The position numbers and the translations under genes are program-made. A stretch of 64,000 nt of DNA from a virus. Each line of letters starts with the position of its first letter. The stretch's first letter is position 1. The notes under the pieces were generated by a model that ran no database searches, was not told the origin of the DNA, and saw only the letters and a program-made list of their open reading frames with translations. Positions 1 to 54,840 of the stretch are shown here, piece after piece. The DNA lies in the IMG/VR virus record IMGVR_UViG_3300025030_000093, positions 1-64,000 of that record. One strand, 5' to 3'.

Positions 1-108
1 GTTTCGACCGTGCCGCCAGACAAGACCGTTTTGACCGTGCCGCCAGACTCGACCGTTTCGACCGTGCCGCCAGACGCGACCCTTTTGACCGTGCCGCCAG
101 ACAAGAGT
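1..108. repeat. Four tandem 27-bp repeats
   Basis: Four adjacent 27-bp units (1-27, 28-54, 55-81, 82-108) share the core GACCGTGCCGCCAGAC and differ at a few bases. They lie inside the leftward gene at the window edge and encode a nine-residue unit of the form SGGTVxTVx. Because 27 is a multiple of three, unit gain or loss keeps the frame. There are no spacers, so this is a protein-coding repeat and not a CRISPR array. Confidence 0.9.
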
Positions 109-1242: not shown

Positions 1243-1339
1243 GGCCGGGCGGCGTGGCAACGATGATCCACGGCCCCGATTGCGAAGGGGCGACTGCGCG
1301 GATCGCAAAGTCAAGCTGGTTTGAATCCGGCCCCGGCCT
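1243..1339 (+). ncRNA. tRNA-Leu-like structured element A
   Basis: GGCCGGG (1243-1249) pairs perfectly with CCCGGCC (1332-1338). A T-arm-like hairpin (stem GCTGG/CCGGC, loop TTTGAAT, 1315-1331) precedes the 3' strand. CGTGG/CCACG (1253-1257/1268-1272) sits in the D-arm position and GCCCC/GGGGC (1273-1277/1287-1291) in the anticodon-arm position, with a nine-base loop. A hairpin at 1292-1312 resembles the long variable arm of class II tRNAs. The nine-base loop and missing D-loop GG argue against a normal decoding tRNA. It shares both ends with elements B and C. Confidence 0.6.
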
Positions 1340-1362
1340 CTCGGTAAATTAAAGGAGGAAAA

Positions 1363-1773
1363 ATGAAGGTCAAAGCGGTAACTAAAGAAGATTGGAGCGC
1401 GTGGGATAAGATAGCCAAGTTTCAAGATAAGATTCTGACATTCAAAGATGTCCCGGCGATCCGCGAGTATGGTCTATATATGATAGAGCGGATACGGGAT
1501 TATGAAAAGGGTGTCGTGGATATAGTAAGGGTGGACAGAAGTGAAATATCCTTCATTGTCCAGCGGCTTGAAGAACTCAGATGTGATATTGCCGACAAGC
1601 TCAGGAAGATTATAAAACAGCAATATAAGACCGGCGCTATTGGGGTTTACTGGCAGAAGAAAGAAGTTATTCCTTTTGTCTCGATTGATAACCTTGAGGC
1701 CACTACATTTTTCACGCCGGAAGATGTTAATATAGTCAGGGGAGGAGAAGTTAATGCTGACAGCAAAACTTAA
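1363..1773 (+). CDS. Hypothetical protein upstream of the recombinase pair
   Basis: This 136-residue protein follows a strong AAAGGAGG site. It is charged, with a helical centre (about 50-90) and a C-terminal beta-like part ending NIVRGGEVNADSKT. Its last 20 bases overlap the start of the exonuclease gene, so the two are translationally coupled. I recognise no domain. Its position suggests an accessory role in recombination, which is inference only. Confidence 0.7.
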   Translation: MKVKAVTKEDWSAWDKIAKFQDKILTFKDVPAIREYGLYMIERIRDYEKGVVDIVRVDRSEISFIVQRLEELRCDIADKLRKIIKQQYKTGAIGVYWQKKEVIPFVSIDNLEATTFFTPEDVNIVRGGEVNADSKT

Positions 1774-2704
1774 AGAATTAAGGAAGGGCCATATCGGCGC
1801 GTCTGAAGTTCCCGCTCTGTTCGGAGAGCATATCAAGCTCACGGGGACGGACTTGTGGTTAAAGGCCGCTTTCGGCACTGATGATGTAGAACTAACATCT
1901 TCTGCCATTAGAATTGGGGAAGATTTTGAAAAACCGTTGCTTGGGTGGGCGGCAAAAGAACTGAATGTAGAGATTTCGGTTGAGCCTGACGATCTGTTTG
2001 CGGTTTGCGAGGAGCACCCGATTCTCGCCGCCACTTTAGACGCAAAAATCAAGCCATTTCCATCCAAAGAAGCCATTGAGGCGAAAACATCGAGCATGGA
2101 CGGTGATAGCGGCGGCAAGGATAATGAGTGGGGAGAGCCAGGAACCGATCAGATTCCTAATCGAGTGATTCTTCAATGCCAAAGCCAAATTCTTTGTCAT
2201 GGATTAGATCGAGTGTACGTCTCGGCGCTTTTAGGCAGAATGGGTCTGAGAAGGGAACTTTATAAAATTGAACGCAATGACGCTATAATCTCAGCGATTA
2301 TCCAAAGGGCGGAGGAATTTTGGGAGAAATATATCATCACCAAGCTTCAACCGCCAGAAAGCCTTTACGGCCTTGGGTGTATTGATGTCATCAAAAGGAT
2401 TCAGAGACAGCCTGCCACCTGGGCGGAGATCGACGAAGCTCTAATCTTCGATTGGGACGCCAAGCGCAAGGCAAGGTTGGAAGCAGAACACGCAGAGGAT
2501 GACGCCCTTGAGCGTATGTTGACGCCCCTGAAAGACGCGGAGGGCGTTCACCTGTCCGATGGCCGGACGCTGGAATACTTGCCGACAACCAAGAGTATCC
2601 TCGACCAGAAGAAGTTCAAAGCGGAACAGCCTGAACTCTATGAGGCGTTTTTAAAGCCCTCTATTTCACGCACACCCAGATTGAAAGGGACTATCAATGA
2701 GTGA
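1754..2704 (+). CDS. YqaJ/RecE-like viral exonuclease
   Basis: This 316-residue protein has the signature of the YqaJ/lambda-exonuclease nuclease fold. It shows GASEVPALFG at 15-24, the metal-binding aspartate in LAATLDAK (D96), the ExK pair E109/K111, and a glutamine-rich helix QCQSQ at 140-144. Such enzymes digest one strand of double-stranded ends and hand the 3' overhang to an annealase. The next gene, overlapping by 8 bases, is that RecT partner. The start ATG at 1754 lies within the end of the upstream gene. Confidence 0.88.
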   Translation: MLTAKLKELRKGHIGASEVPALFGEHIKLTGTDLWLKAAFGTDDVELTSSAIRIGEDFEKPLLGWAAKELNVEISVEPDDLFAVCEEHPILAATLDAKIKPFPSKEAIEAKTSSMDGDSGGKDNEWGEPGTDQIPNRVILQCQSQILCHGLDRVYVSALLGRMGLRRELYKIERNDAIISAIIQRAEEFWEKYIITKLQPPESLYGLGCIDVIKRIQRQPATWAEIDEALIFDWDAKRKARLEAEHAEDDALERMLTPLKDAEGVHLSDGRTLEYLPTTKSILDQKKFKAEQPELYEAFLKPSISRTPRLKGTINE

Positions 2705-3737
2705 AGAACAGCAGGAATCCACAGAGGTAGCAACGCACACCCCGGCATCGACACAGACAATTCAAACTTATGCTGGTCGGGGATTAAACCTGACCACCTT
2801 TGATGAAATGTGGAGATTTGCCAAGGCCGTTGCCGCATCGGGTCTTGCGCCGAAGGATATGCAGAAGCCTGAGACGCTTTTAGTGGCAATCGAAATGGGA
2901 CTTGAAGTTGGCTTGACGCCGATGCAGGCTATCCAGAATATCGCCGTGATTAATGGACGCCCCGGCTTGTGGGGTGATGCAATCCCCGGCCTTGTGCGCA
3001 GCAGCGGCCACCAAGAGTATTATAAGCAGGAGAAGATTGGTACACCCAGCACAGATGGTTATGGTTATAAGGTTACGAGCAAGCGCAAGGGCGACCCGAA
3101 TCCAATCGAGACAACTTTCACGGTGGCCGATGCTAAGAAAGCAAGCTTATGGACCAAGGCCGGACCGTGGACATTCTATCCTGATAGAATGCTACTTAAT
3201 CGCGCAAGAGCCTTCAATGCCCGCGATAACTTTCCCGATGTACTCAAGGGCATGCGGACGGCGGAAGAAATCATGGATACCGATTTTGAGGTATTAGATT
3301 CTACGCCTCTTGCCGATGGCGACAAGACGAACCGGCTGGCGGAGAAACTGACGAAGAAAGAAGAAGTCGAAAAGGTTATTGAGGTTATGGAAGAAGCAGC
3401 ATACCCGCCCATTTCTGACACGGCGGCCTTTGTCGAACAGGTCGAGAAAGCCACGCAAGAGCGTATTCTTAACGGTCCTCCGCTTGTTGACGGTGATGTG
3501 ATAAAAGCCGAACCGCACCAGTCGCCGCAGGAGTCACCGCAGGAGTCACGGCCAAACGATACTTTACCTACCGGCCAAGTGAAAGCGGGGAAGGCGAGTT
3601 ACATTCTCAAAAAGCTGGAACTCCGAGAAATATCTATGCCGGACTTGCGGCGTGTAACCAAGGAACTCGGTATCAAGTTCGGCATCCCGCAGAACCTCAC
3701 CGAGGAAGAAGCCGGTAGGATATTGGAGAAGTTATAA
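2697..3737 (+). CDS. recT: RecT-family single-strand annealing protein
   Basis: This 346-residue protein contains the RecT core. Around residues 60-100 it has AIEMGLEVGLTPMQAIQNI followed by NGRPGLWGDA, and later a positively charged VRSSGH and KVTSKRKGDP region. The family forms rings or filaments on single-stranded DNA and anneals complementary strands. Residues beyond about 200 are acidic and low in complexity, with QSPQESPQES repeats, and end in a small helical domain that may bind partners such as SSB. It overlaps the exonuclease gene by 8 bases. Confidence 0.88.
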   Translation: MSEEQQESTEVATHTPASTQTIQTYAGRGLNLTTFDEMWRFAKAVAASGLAPKDMQKPETLLVAIEMGLEVGLTPMQAIQNIAVINGRPGLWGDAIPGLVRSSGHQEYYKQEKIGTPSTDGYGYKVTSKRKGDPNPIETTFTVADAKKASLWTKAGPWTFYPDRMLLNRARAFNARDNFPDVLKGMRTAEEIMDTDFEVLDSTPLADGDKTNRLAEKLTKKEEVEKVIEVMEEAAYPPISDTAAFVEQVEKATQERILNGPPLVDGDVIKAEPHQSPQESPQESRPNDTLPTGQVKAGKASYILKKLELREISMPDLRRVTKELGIKFGIPQNLTEEEAGRILEKL

Positions 3738-3758
3738 ACAATCCAGAAGGAGGCTGTA

Positions 3759-3926
3759 ATGCCAGAGACAAAAGCAGTAATAGATGTGTGGATTCCCGTC
3801 GTGGGCGCGCAAGAACAGATGAAAAAAGTGGTGCGTATTTATGATTTAGACACAACGCTCAGAACTGTTTTGGAAAATCTGCCATTGGATGCAGATGATA
3901 TTAGGCTTGAGTTTGCAAACGAATAG
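3759..3926 (+). CDS. Small acidic hypothetical protein
   Basis: An ATG at 3759 follows CCAGAAGGAGG. The 55-residue product begins MPETKAVIDVWIPVVG and ends in an acidic stretch. No family is recognised. It is the last gene before the noncoding structured region at 3927. Confidence 0.65.
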   Translation: MPETKAVIDVWIPVVGAQEQMKKVVRIYDLDTTLRTVLENLPLDADDIRLEFANE

Positions 3927-3928
3927 AA

Positions 3929-4106
3929 CTTTGCGGGCTGTCTAATGCGGCCTTTGGGTGATACGGCAGCGGCCAACTACCATTAGGCCAATACGGAGTA
4001 GATGGGGAATAGCTAACTCACCGAAAAGTATTGGAAGATAAAGTAGCGGCAACCGTATGGGAAGTCTGGTAAGGTGGGAAAATCCAGCGCAAAGTTATGA
4101 CAACAA
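3929..4106 (+). ncRNA. Structured noncoding RNA region (5' half)
   Basis: No convincing gene lies here. Two long imperfect hairpins are adjacent. In the first, CTAATG (3942-3947) pairs with CATTAG (3981-3986), with GGCC/GGCC nested inside. In the second, CCAATAC (3988-3994) pairs with GTATTGG (4028-4034), enclosing GAGTAG/CTAACTC. A smaller CTGG/CCAG hairpin covers 4066-4087. TTGCGG at 3931-3936 could pair with CCGCAA at 4190-4195 inside element B, which would make a pseudoknot. It may form one RNA with element B. I recognise no known RNA family. Confidence 0.5.
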
Positions 4107-4242
4107 GGGCCGGGCGGCTGACTGCCATAGGCCGTAAGGCGGAGGGCATGTTCATGTCTATGGGTTTGGCGGACAGCAGAGAATCAATGCCGCAAGGTGA
4201 GTCTGCTTATGCTAAGAGCCGGTTCGAGTCCGGCCCCGGCCC
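4107..4242 (+). ncRNA. Expanded tRNA-Leu-like element B
   Basis: GGGCCGGG (4107-4114) pairs with CCCGGCCC (4235-4242). A canonical T-arm, GCCGG-TTCGAGT-CCGGC (4218-4234), is the one typical of bacterial tRNA-Leu. Two further stems complete a four-way junction: CCATAG/CTATGG (4125-4130/4158-4163, with an inner GCC-GTAA-GGC hairpin) and AGCAGA/TCTGCT (4175-4180/4202-4207). At 136 nt it is far longer than a tRNA and no seven-base anticodon loop is seen. A short reading frame at 4154-4249 behind GGAGGG is a weaker alternative. Confidence 0.6.
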
Positions 4243-4253
4243 TGTCTAAAATT

Positions 4254-4325
4254 GCGGACCTTGGTGTAATGGCTGCGCGACCGGGGATGGCCCGGAGGGA
4301 GTCGGATAGCCACCGACAGGCCCGT
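4254..4325 (+). ncRNA. tRNA-shaped element D lacking decoding bases
   Basis: The stretch folds as a 71-72 nt cloverleaf. The acceptor is CGGACCT/AGGCCCG (4255-4261/4318-4324, one A-C mismatch), U8 is present, the D-arm is GTG-TAATGGCTG-CGC, the anticodon-position stem is CCGGG/CCCGG (4281-4295), the variable loop has five bases, and the T-position stem is GTCGG/CCGAC with a seven-base loop (4301-4317). The T-loop reads ATAGCCA in place of TTCRANY and the anticodon loop lacks U33. It is either a decayed tRNA or a tRNA mimic. Confidence 0.5.
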
Positions 4326-4350
4326 ACAAAATCTTGAAAGAAGATGAATA

Positions 4351-4539
4351 ATGACCGAGCCTCAGTATTGTTCCGAACCGGACTGCGAAGTTGATTCTTT
4401 ACTTGATGCAGGTTACTACTGTTCCGTCTGCAAACGCTGGATTTGCGAGAAGCATTACAAAGAGAAACACCAGCATTGCCGGGGCTGCGCTACGGACTTG
4501 CCACCGGAAGCCGTTGATCCACGCGATACAAGAATATAG
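4351..4539 (+). CDS. Small double zinc-finger protein
   Basis: This 62-residue protein is packed with metal ligands. It has CSEPDC near 7-12, CSVCKRWICEKH near 24-35, a histidine pair in KHQHC, and CRGC near 43-46. The C-x2-C...C-x2-H...H-x-H-C-x2-C order resembles B-box or AN1-type cross-brace fingers. It starts after the RNA region and ends two bases before element C. Function is unknown. Confidence 0.75.
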   Translation: MTEPQYCSEPDCEVDSLLDAGYYCSVCKRWICEKHYKEKHQHCRGCATDLPPEAVDPRDTRI

Positions 4540-4629
4540 GGCCGGGTGGCGCAAGCCGGGGTCTGGGACGAGAGACCTGCGTTCGAGAAGCGGTCGCCCG
4601 CCGGGATGTAAACCAACCGGCCCCGGCCT
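4540..4629 (+). ncRNA. tRNA-Leu-like structured element C
   Basis: GGCCGGG (4540-4546) pairs with CCCGGCC (4622-4628). The flanks GGCCGGGTGGC and CCGGCCCCGGCC match elements A and B. Inside are GGC-GCAA-GCC (4548-4557), a perfect GGTCT/AGACC stem with an eight-base loop (4560-4577), and GCCGG/CCGGC with a twelve-base loop (4600-4621). The oversized T-position loop makes a functional tRNA unlikely. TTTT follows directly, so it may also slow transcription. Confidence 0.5.
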
Positions 4630-50089: not shown

Positions 50090-51565
50090 TCAATATCCTG
50101 TATCTGAATCCGGCGCTTTATGTTGCTGTTCCAAAGAAAAAGAATCTTCATCGCTTTCCAGTCTTGCGCCAAGCCTTTCGGCAAAAGTAATCGCAAGAGC
50201 ATCCGCGCAGTCGGGACTACTCAAACCACGGGATTTCATGTCCTCTTTCCGTTCAAGTTGTATTTGCTCTCTTTTGTTATATCCATATTCCGGGCCAAGT
50301 AAATCGTTTATCAACTCCTGATCGTTTGGTATATCTGCATTTGCCAGCCATTCTTTCATCAGGTCCCACATTTCGGCGCGTTTATTCGCATACTTTCTTG
50401 TGTCTGAAGCGCGAACGCCATTCTGCACACCAATCCATCTATGCCCAAGTTGGTGTCCACGGTCTAATACGCCAGCGCCAAGGCCGTCCTCATCCACGAA
50501 TACAATGTCCGCCCGCCATTTGTTCTCTACCGCCACAAGGCGGCTTGCTACTTGCATCGTATCTAACTCACGGTACTTCTCGGTATGGATAATCTTTAAA
50601 CCGCGTCGTACCTGCATTACTGTTTGATCGTCACCGAAACGCGCCACGTCACAGCCAACACAGATCGGGCTGTACGCCATTTCCCGCAAATCGTACTCAC
50701 GCCCAACGGCGGCATTTACAAGATCATTACCGATAAACTGCGTAGAAGCAGCGCGAGGAAATTGCCCAAGACCATGAACGCGCACAAAGTCGCTATCTTC
50801 ACCGTAATCCTCTACCCACTGCTTGAACTTCGTTAAGTTGCGACTCGACATCTTACAGGTGCGTATGTCCAACTGAAAACGATGCCAACGGTGCATGAGT
50901 CTGCCGAAGCATTCACGGAAACGACCCACGTTGCGCGTCGGGTTTCCCAAGACTATCCAAATACTGTTAGGTTCTGTAAAAGCACCTTCGCTTGCTTCCC
51001 AAATAGTGTCCGCTATAGAACTGCCTTCATCAAAAATAAACAGTGTTGCCTGCCCGTGGGTTCCAGCGAAAGCCTCTGGCTTCTGTTCGTTCCACGGGAT
51101 AGCCGAAGCGTACCATGTTTTCTGTTCATTCTGCCGGTAATACTTGGTAGCCGTCCAGACAAACCAATGGCCGTTCAGCGCCCTGGTTTGCCACAGCGCC
51201 ACTTCACGCCATGTCTTTGTATCTAACTGTGTGGCAGTATTGGCCGTAACTACGATACGCGGATTCTTAAAGCAACTATTAAACCAATGTACCAACCATG
51301 CGGCCAGAGCACCCTTGCCAACGCCGTTACCACTGGCGACAGCTATCTGCAAAGATTCTGTCTTGTATTTGCCGGACGCATAATAATCCTCGATAACCGC
51401 CATTACATCGTCTTGCCACTTATCAGGTCCGGCTTCATTCGCCAGTTCCGTTCCCGGAGCACCCCACGGATAAATGACACGCACAAAGGAACGCGGTTTC
51501 TGGCGATACTCCACACAGATTTGAGCCAAGCGTTCATCGAGCGTCAGGTTAGGATCAAACGTCAT
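50090..51565 (-). CDS. Terminase large subunit
   Basis: This 491-residue protein is the packaging motor. Walker A is ASGNGVGKG (77-85), Walker B is LFIFDEG (175-181), and a GNPTRN motif near 207 serves coupling. The RNase H-type nuclease has D306 in GCDVARFGDD, D358 and D360 in VFVDEDG, and D454 in SPDCADAL. It cuts and drives DNA into the head through the portal, encoded just downstream. The start overlaps a small zinc-ribbon gene. Confidence 0.92.
   Translation of the reverse strand: MTFDPNLTLDERLAQICVEYRQKPRSFVRVIYPWGAPGTELANEAGPDKWQDDVMAVIEDYYASGKYKTESLQIAVASGNGVGKGALAAWLVHWFNSCFKNPRIVVTANTATQLDTKTWREVALWQTRALNGHWFVWTATKYYRQNEQKTWYASAIPWNEQKPEAFAGTHGQATLFIFDEGSSIADTIWEASEGAFTEPNSIWIVLGNPTRNVGRFRECFGRLMHRWHRFQLDIRTCKMSSRNLTKFKQWVEDYGEDSDFVRVHGLGQFPRAASTQFIGNDLVNAAVGREYDLREMAYSPICVGCDVARFGDDQTVMQVRRGLKIIHTEKYRELDTMQVASRLVAVENKWRADIVFVDEDGLGAGVLDRGHQLGHRWIGVQNGVRASDTRKYANKRAEMWDLMKEWLANADIPNDQELINDLLGPEYGYNKREQIQLERKEDMKSRGLSSPDCADALAITFAERLGARLESDEDSFSLEQQHKAPDSDTGY
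50092..50106. repeat. 15-bp direct repeat, copy 2
   Basis: Identical to 49842-49856; it covers the last codons of the terminase gene. Confidence 0.8.
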
Positions 51566-54406: not shown

Positions 54407-54664
54407 TTATCCCTTTTCGGCAGAATCATCTTCTACCGTCTCAATAAACGCCTGAAATTTGCCGTCCTTTACGGCCTGCCTTATTTCCGCCACGCCCTTA
54501 ATAAAACGATTGACCGGCTGCCAATCTAAAGCCTTCCCGCAAGCAAAACACTCTTGGGGTGGCAAGCGCGACTCTATTGGCACTTCAAACTTAGCCCCAC
54601 AAATGCAAGCTATTTTAACATAACTTATTTCTTTTAAATCAGTTACATAGACTTTCTTGGTCAT
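54407..54664 (-). CDS. Zinc-ribbon protein
   Basis: I start at 54664 behind AGAGGG. The 85-residue product has CIC and CFAC pairs (IACICGAKF, QECFACGKA), then a helical tail with a WQPVNRFIKGVAEIRQ segment. Function is unknown. Confidence 0.62.
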   Translation of the reverse strand: MTKKVYVTDLKEISYVKIACICGAKFEVPIESRLPPQECFACGKALDWQPVNRFIKGVAEIRQAVKDGKFQAFIETVEDDSAEKG

Positions 54665-54687
54665 TTTCCCTCTCATAGGCGGTAAGG

Positions 54688-54754
54688 GGAGGGTGCCGGT
54701 GCCTGCATTGGGCTTTGGTTCCGATAGCAGAGGGTTCGACTCCCTCCCGCTCCA
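54688..54754 (+). tRNA. Degenerate tRNA-Gln(UUG)-like gene
   Basis: A perfect T-arm, GAGGG-TTCGACT-CCCTC (54730-54746), and an anticodon arm with loop CTTTGGT (54713-54719) give anticodon TTG. The D-arm is short (TGC/GCA around CGGTGCCT). The acceptor GGAGGGT/CCGCTCC has two mismatches. CCA is not encoded. It is probably a decaying tRNA-Gln. It lies on the plus strand inside a leftward gene block. Confidence 0.5.
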
Positions 54755-54769
54755 CCGTTTTAAGACAAT

Positions 54770-54840
54770 GACCCGGTCATCTAATGGCAGGACGCGCGAC
54801 TTTAAATCGTGATACGGGGGTTAGAGCCCCCTCCGGGCCA
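54770..54840 (+). tRNA. tRNA-Gln-like gene with UUA (ochre suppressor) anticodon
   Basis: The 71-nt cloverleaf has acceptor GACCCGG/CCGGGCC (one A-C mismatch), U8, D-arm ATC-TAATGGCAG-GAC, anticodon arm CGCGA-CTTTAAA-TCGTG, a four-base variable loop and T-stem GGGGG/CCCCT. With U33 at 54801 the anticodon is TTA, which pairs with the stop codon UAA. The D-loop and loop context resemble bacterial tRNA-Gln (CTTTGGA). The T-loop reads TTAGAGC, losing C56, so function is uncertain. Confidence 0.65.

Follow-up and report, generated by a model that had tools for sequence, protein, structure and literature searches.

We analysed a window of 64,000 nt (64 kb; 48% GC) from the 66.5-kb IMG/VR virus record IMGVR_UViG_3300025030_000093. 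Its apparent early region holds three intergenic elements on the + strand, termed E1, E2 and E3, which share tRNA-like closing stems around different interiors.

E1, 1242-1339, + strand: A-1:U73 plus a 7-bp acceptor stem (GGCCGGG/CCCGGCC); five-arm, class-II-like fold; T-arm GCTGG TTTGAAT CCGGC; no CCA encoded.
E2, 4107-4242, + strand: G-1:C73 plus a 7-bp acceptor stem; canonical T-arm GCCGG TTCGAGT CCGGC; unrelated interior of ~100 nt; no CCA encoded.
E3, 4539-4629, + strand: G-1:U73 plus a 7-bp acceptor stem; T-stem GCCGG/CCGGC with a 12-nt loop; unrelated interior.

All three are on the coding strand within a tightly packed region. E1 comes after a Cys-rich open reading frame (ORF; 1033-1233). 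Further along, E2 is followed by another tRNA-shaped element (E4, listed below) and by ORF 4351-4539, whose TAG stop codon ends on the first base of E3; TTTT follows the 3' side of E3. A YqaJ-like exonuclease gene (Pfam) and a partner gene lie between E1 and E2 (1754-3737, + strand). No Pfam family matches the partner gene (2697-3737), which we assume, because it adjoins YqaJ, to encode a RecT/Erf-like annealing protein.

The common 5' sequence GGCCGGGYGGC begins at 1243, 4108 and 4540, and the common 3' sequence CCGGCCCCGGCC ends at 1338, 4241 and 4628. At the 5' ends 10 or all 11 of the 11 bases coincide, the final 12 bases are identical and the closing stems are perfectly paired. On the + strand of the window this 3' 12-mer is found once in each of the three elements and nowhere else, and the 2.5 kb of the record outside the window has no further copy of the closing frame. 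A first-pass annotation of the window had described three elements of 90 to 136 nt with common ends; their places were confirmed within one base, and the lengths, including the pair between positions -1 and 73, are 98, 136 and 91 nt for E1, E2 and E3. The interiors are not alignable (pairwise local alignments, p 0.47, 0.63 and 0.39). In each element bases -1 and 73 could form a pair (A-U in E1, G-C in E2 and G-U in E3), as they could in E4 and in T2, a tRNA at 54.7 kb, making five of five examined; in the GTDB tRNA-Cys genes used as a control they could do so in two of five, the cases being few and the control small. With this pair the branch of E1-E3 measures 8+5 bp, and without it the standard 7+5.

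A seven-base T-loop within a full T-arm is present in E1 (TTTGAAT) and E2 (TTCGAGT), while E3 has the same T-stem with a 12-nt loop. E1 is predicted to fold into a five-armed, class-II-like cloverleaf; the predicted folds of E2 and E3 are not cloverleaves. As noted at first pass, the canonical anticodon arm, with a 7-nt loop and a 5-bp stem, is absent from all three predicted folds. Its position in E1 is taken by a 9-nt loop, GATTGCGAA, closed by the stem GCCCC/GGGGC, and E2 and E3 show no anticodon loop. ARAGORN, which the first-pass annotation had proposed as a check, called none of E1, E2 and E3. The Rfam tRNA model (RF00005) matched none of E1-E4 at E values up to 10, and only 54770-54840 scored over its cut-off; ARAGORN and Rfam (at cut-off) thus make one tRNA call each in the window, two different ones, both at 54.7 kb. 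It is highly probable that E1-E3 are not standard decoders. The whole elements fold only modestly better, by free energy, than shuffled sequences do (z -1.8 for E1, -2.1 for E2 and -1.4 for E3), so that it is the common sequence and the T-loops, and not stability, that provide the evidence.

A tRNA-Cys identity of the closing frame was predicted from the acceptor stem and U73 before the GTDB species genomes were scanned for GGCCGGGYGGC-N34-64-CYGGTTYRANTCCGGCCCCGGCC. The scan returned five stretches, and all five are canonical tRNA-Cys(GCA) by ARAGORN, each with U73, the frame being followed in each by TCCA. U73, G2:C71 and C3:G70 are given as the acceptor-branch determinants of bacterial tRNA-Cys in PMC9976931, where U73 by itself is reported to give minihelices cysteine identity. 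E1 and E3 carry all three determinants. E2 has C73 in place of U73 and so combines G-1 with C73, the tRNA-His acceptor code; both bases are among the bacterial tRNA-His determinants in that same text. Comparison of the interiors with the tRNA-Cys interior gave p 0.034 (E1), 0.076 (E2) and 0.535 (E3), and with six comparisons made this was not taken as evidence.

The first-pass annotation had called the elements tRNA-Leu-like and had recognized a tRNA-Leu T-arm in one of them. The T-arm match stands, since the T-arm region of E2 is identical at 22 of 22 nt to an annotated phage tRNA-Leu, but the label does not. That tRNA-Leu has the acceptor GCCCGGG/CCCGGGC and A73, whereas the acceptor of E1-E3 is GGCCGGG/CCCGGCC and base 73 is T in E1 and E3 and C in E2, so pair 2:71 and base 73 differ. 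The tRNA-Leu label was rejected because the G2:C71 frame is that of tRNA-Cys in five of five GTDB matches and because E1 and E3 have U73 instead of A73. Judged from its sequence, the closing frame of E1-E3 is in all likelihood Cys-type. The earlier view of a tRNA-like family with shared closing stems is supported by the T-arms, the tRNA-Cys frame matches and the unalignable interiors.

We read E1-E3, at a probability of about 0.42, as irregular phage tRNA genes with a tRNA-Cys-type acceptor/T frame whose interior, comprising the D and anticodon regions, has been replaced or lost, and which may act as non-decoding mimics or decoys. What the sequence shows is the common frame and its tRNA-Cys match, the determinants in the acceptor, predicted folds that offer no canonical anticodon loop, and the tandem layout with E4; transcription, processing, charging and the mimic role are inferred. 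Further support comes from the possible -1:73 pair, from the positions on the coding strand of a packed region and from published irregular tRNAs that have a -1 pair, an extra stem and a polycistronic arrangement. For its separate parts, we lean towards the elements being kept rather than decaying, and a role as mimic or decoy is a tentative assignment; a decoy, a regulatory RNA and decay are all possible. As to mechanism, E1-E3 would be transcribed within the early mRNA and excised by host RNase P and the 3' tRNA-processing enzymes, which recognize the acceptor and T stems. The host would add CCA, and charging may occur. The RNAs would act through the acceptor branch, as mimics or decoys and not as decoding adaptors. 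In tRNAs the acceptor/T branch is read by RNase P, the 3' processing enzymes, the CCA enzyme and EF-Tu. Cysteine synthetase acting on minihelices also reads this branch, according to PMC9976931. Candidate partners would be cysteinyl-tRNA synthetase (for E1 and E3), possibly histidyl-tRNA synthetase (for E2), EF-Tu, RNase P and host tRNA-targeting defence.

Several points weigh against this reading. The analysis is computational and E1-E3 are known here from DNA sequence alone. A scan of the genome for generic 8+5 or 9+4 closing branches yielded 53, compared with an average of 40 over 20 shuffles, which is not above chance, and therefore branch length alone proves nothing. The interiors by themselves are not more stable than shuffled sequences (z -0.45, -0.75 and -1.0). 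The T-loop is lost in E3, E1 has U56 and E2 has lost U73, all of which is equally compatible with decay. In pattern scans of IMG/VR no other genome carried the frame in comparable surroundings.

The chief competing explanation is decay. In this view one phage tRNA-Cys-type gene was duplicated, and its copies are breaking up by insertions and deletions in the middle and are now functionless. Kept ends with unalignable interiors would be the pattern expected from selection on the acceptor/T branch, and recent copying with later insertions and deletions in the middle would produce the same pattern. E4 and T1 (54.7 kb) also look degenerate, the T-loops of E3 and E1 are damaged and no relatives in the loci searched keep E1-E3. 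Less easily explained by decay are closing stems that are perfectly paired and near-identical in all three elements while the interiors are unalignable, the three copies filling gaps of a compact early region, and a -1:73 pair that stays possible through A-U, G-C and G-U. On balance we consider decay rather doubtful.

The elements could also serve mRNA processing or stability, as tRNA-shaped sites where cleavage of the early polycistronic mRNA by RNase P and the 3' enzymes would leave protected fragments; the RNA set free would then have no role of its own. Such sites would fit intergenic positions on the coding strand and the finding that the ribosome-binding-site-like sequence of the following ORF lies ~10-20 nt past the end of E1 and of E3. 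They would leave unexplained the kept Cys-type identity bases of E1 and E3 and the presence of E4 beside E2 in one gap, and we think this unlikely.

Very unlikely is a set of working non-standard decoding tRNAs, with E1 as a five-arm tRNA reading from its 9-nt loop and E2 and E3 becoming functional after intron removal. E1 does contain TTGCGAA, near the Cys loop CTGCAAA of the GTDB tRNAs, and non-canonical tRNAs can be active according to PMC7609411; against this stand the predicted folds, none of which offers a 7-nt anticodon loop on a 5-bp stem, and the Rfam tRNA model, to which E1-E4 give no match even at E up to 10. Introns of the archaeal type came into question because the terminase-like protein (50090-51565, - strand) shares 50.5% identity with that of a Methanomicrobiales-assigned virus (BK063671.1, top match among 216 phage records), and were set aside because the Amidase_2 gene points to a peptidoglycan host and not to a tRNA-intron-splicing archaeon. 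Intergenic inverted repeats that are rich in GC and unrelated to tRNA, such as terminators or protein-binding hairpins, would match the GC-rich closing stems and the TTTT after E3 and are hardly credible given the tRNA T-arms of E1 and E2 and the tRNA-Cys frame match; a terminator scan also found none of E1-E3, its loop limit of 8 making it blind to such long elements.

Among known systems, E1-E3 appear on our best reading nearest to the published irregular allo-tRNAs, matching neither allo-tRNA nor selC* tRNA-Cys. The abstract of Mukai et al. 2017 reportedly mentions phages. The irregular allo-tRNA-like RNAs, as described in section 7 of the review by Krahn, Fischer and Soell (PMC7609411; after Mukai et al. 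2017), have a G-1 pair or an extra stem, form polycistrons, come from soil metatranscriptomes and are not charged in vitro by E. coli enzymes; their role is unknown. The features in common are tRNA acceptor and T arms, an extra -1 pair, an extra junction stem (in E1), a tandem arrangement with odd tRNAs and an origin in uncultured sequence. Their branch is 8/4 or 9/4, whereas that of E1-E3 is 7/5 (8/5 with -1:73), E1 and E3 have Cys-type acceptor bases and the interior of E2 is far larger. Allo-tRNA proper is defined by a 12-bp branch (8/4 or 9/3) and by an identity of the seryl-tRNA synthetase type (G73 and a long variable arm); E1-E3 have a 5-bp T-stem on a 7- or 8-bp acceptor, and base 73 is U in E1, C in E2 and U in E3. 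selC* tRNA-Cys likewise has Cys identity bases including U73 and a lengthened acceptor stem, but according to PMC7609411 its branch is 8/4, with A51a bulged out, and its anticodon is GCA or UCA, and E1-E3 have a 5-bp T-stem without a bulge and no such loop. E1-E3 resemble irregular allo-tRNAs in kind but fall outside the allo-tRNA and selC* definitions. tRNA-Cys itself has the identical acceptor/T frame, with G2:C71, C3:G70 and U73 as in E1 and E3, while E1-E3 lack the 7-nt GCA loop, measure 91-136 nt and encode no CCA. Bacterial tRNA-Sec has an 8/5 branch, as E1-E3 would have if -1:73 pairs, and E1 has a long variable-arm-like stem, but G73 and a UCA loop are missing from E1-E3; the Rfam tRNA-Sec model (RF01852) gave 14 bits at best, over only part of E2 (4144-4242), below its cut-off of 47. 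Bacterial Y RNAs and the tRNA-like domains of tmRNA also combine an acceptor with a T arm and lack a normal anticodon arm. E1-E3 differ from them in having no Rfam match and no recognized tag-coding region.

One more extended proposal is that the anticodon-less mimics carry two synthetase codes on one acceptor frame, Cys in E1 and E3 and His in E2. They would be charged or bound without decoding, as bait for host enzymes or tRNA-targeting defences, or as a sensor of Cys and His charging beside small Cys/His-rich zinc-finger-like genes. We regard this as distinctly unlikely.

Relatives were sought by pattern and by gene neighbourhood. In IMG/VR, the full frame with an interior of 66-96 was found in six stretches, which were folded, showed no T-loop to the T-arm descriptor and were taken as chance GC-rich matches; the T-arm plus acceptor was found in two (L014 and L015) and the tRNA-Cys-like frame in none. 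Loci were collected around relatives of gene 2697-3737 (3, then 14 loci), YqaJ (66 loci), a portal-like gene (2 loci, both 100% identical fragments) and the terminase-like gene (3 loci); some loci share contigs. In the 80 loci gathered near relatives of genes 1754-3737, a descriptor limited to 7-nt T-loops, which would miss E3-like copies, showed no second copy. The portal-like and terminase-like locus searches brought no second copy. The T-arm descriptor was run over 94 sequences, leaving out L001 and L002 (pieces of the record itself) and the terminase-like loci, and gave 26 rows, of which 18 overlap ARAGORN tRNAs; E1 and E2 are two of the eight that do not. The searches brought up just two small contigs that are 100% identical to this phage. 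The spreading family suggested at first pass is thus not borne out by the IMG/VR scans or by the 80 loci. A search of titles and abstract openings showed no phage in which elements of this kind had been described. An unlabelled 153-nt tRNA-like stretch (L014:6040-6192, - strand) has the same acceptor and T-stem as E1-E3 and ends in A73-CCA. It sits inside a cluster of 27 called tRNAs on a 130-kb viral contig and has an apparent tRNA 5' half inside, and it may be an interrupted tRNA.

The window has further tRNA-like elements and two small ORFs adjoining E1-E3.

Small ORF, 1033-1233, + strand: CxxC and CxC pairs, zinc-ribbon-like; directly before E1; no Pfam match.
E0 (uncertain), 3927-4095, + strand: directly after a stop codon; closed by a perfect 9-bp repeat, AACTTTGCG/CGCAAAGTT, beside a 4-bp hairpin.
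E4, 4254-4325, + strand: tRNA-shaped; acceptor CGGACCT/AGGCCCG with one A-C mismatch; D-loop AATGGCT.
Small ORF, 4351-4539, + strand: Cys/His-rich; between E4 and E3; no Pfam match.
T1, 54686-54757, + strand: degenerate tRNA; tRNA-Gln TTG by ARAGORN; below the Rfam tRNA cut-off.
T2, 54769-54840, + strand: passes the Rfam tRNA cut-off; loop CTTTAAA, anticodon UUA; T-1:A73 pairable; not called by ARAGORN.

E4 has the top cloverleaf score in the window (18.0, compared with 17.5 for the Rfam-recognized tRNA at 54770 and 17.0 for the best of three shuffles). Its anticodon-position loop, GGATGGC, is without U33 and its T-arm, GTCGG ATAGCCA CCGAC, is without the T-loop consensus. A common origin of E4 and T2 is not claimed because their alignment is not significant (p 0.34). 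An inverted repeat like the one closing E0 occurs in 1.1% of 2000 shuffles. The fold of E0 is not stable against shuffles (z -0.9), and E0 was not counted as a member because the generic scan, with its 13-bp closing-branch descriptor, was not above chance. The acceptor of T1 pairs poorly and both T1 ends also match the Rfam tmRNA model (E 9.8e-5); T1 lies upstream of a small CxC/CxxC ORF (54407-54676, - strand). The UUA anticodon of T2 is complementary to the stop codon UAA, which ends 48 of 104 crude gene calls, and T2 would be an ochre-suppressor-type tRNA or a decayed tRNA. The first-pass annotation had placed each element in a gap beside a small zinc-finger gene. Cys-rich and Cys/His-rich ORFs do adjoin the elements, but the zinc-finger association is post hoc and is not claimed; the crude gene caller scored 8 of 104 genes as zinc-like and missed ORF 4351-4539. 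The start of the window (1-102, + strand) consists of 27-bp tandem repeats (three overlapping 48-nt copies, 92-94% alike).

If E1-E3 are decaying genes, they would show how far the interior of a tRNA can be scrambled in a phage while its ends persist. If they are kept mimics, they would represent an unusual retention by a phage of the tRNA acceptor branch with the decoding end discarded, and the partner (synthetases, EF-Tu, RNase P or tRNA-targeting defences) would be open to a direct test. They would also provide a sequenced example of the irregular tRNA clusters known from metatranscriptomes, set among early phage genes.

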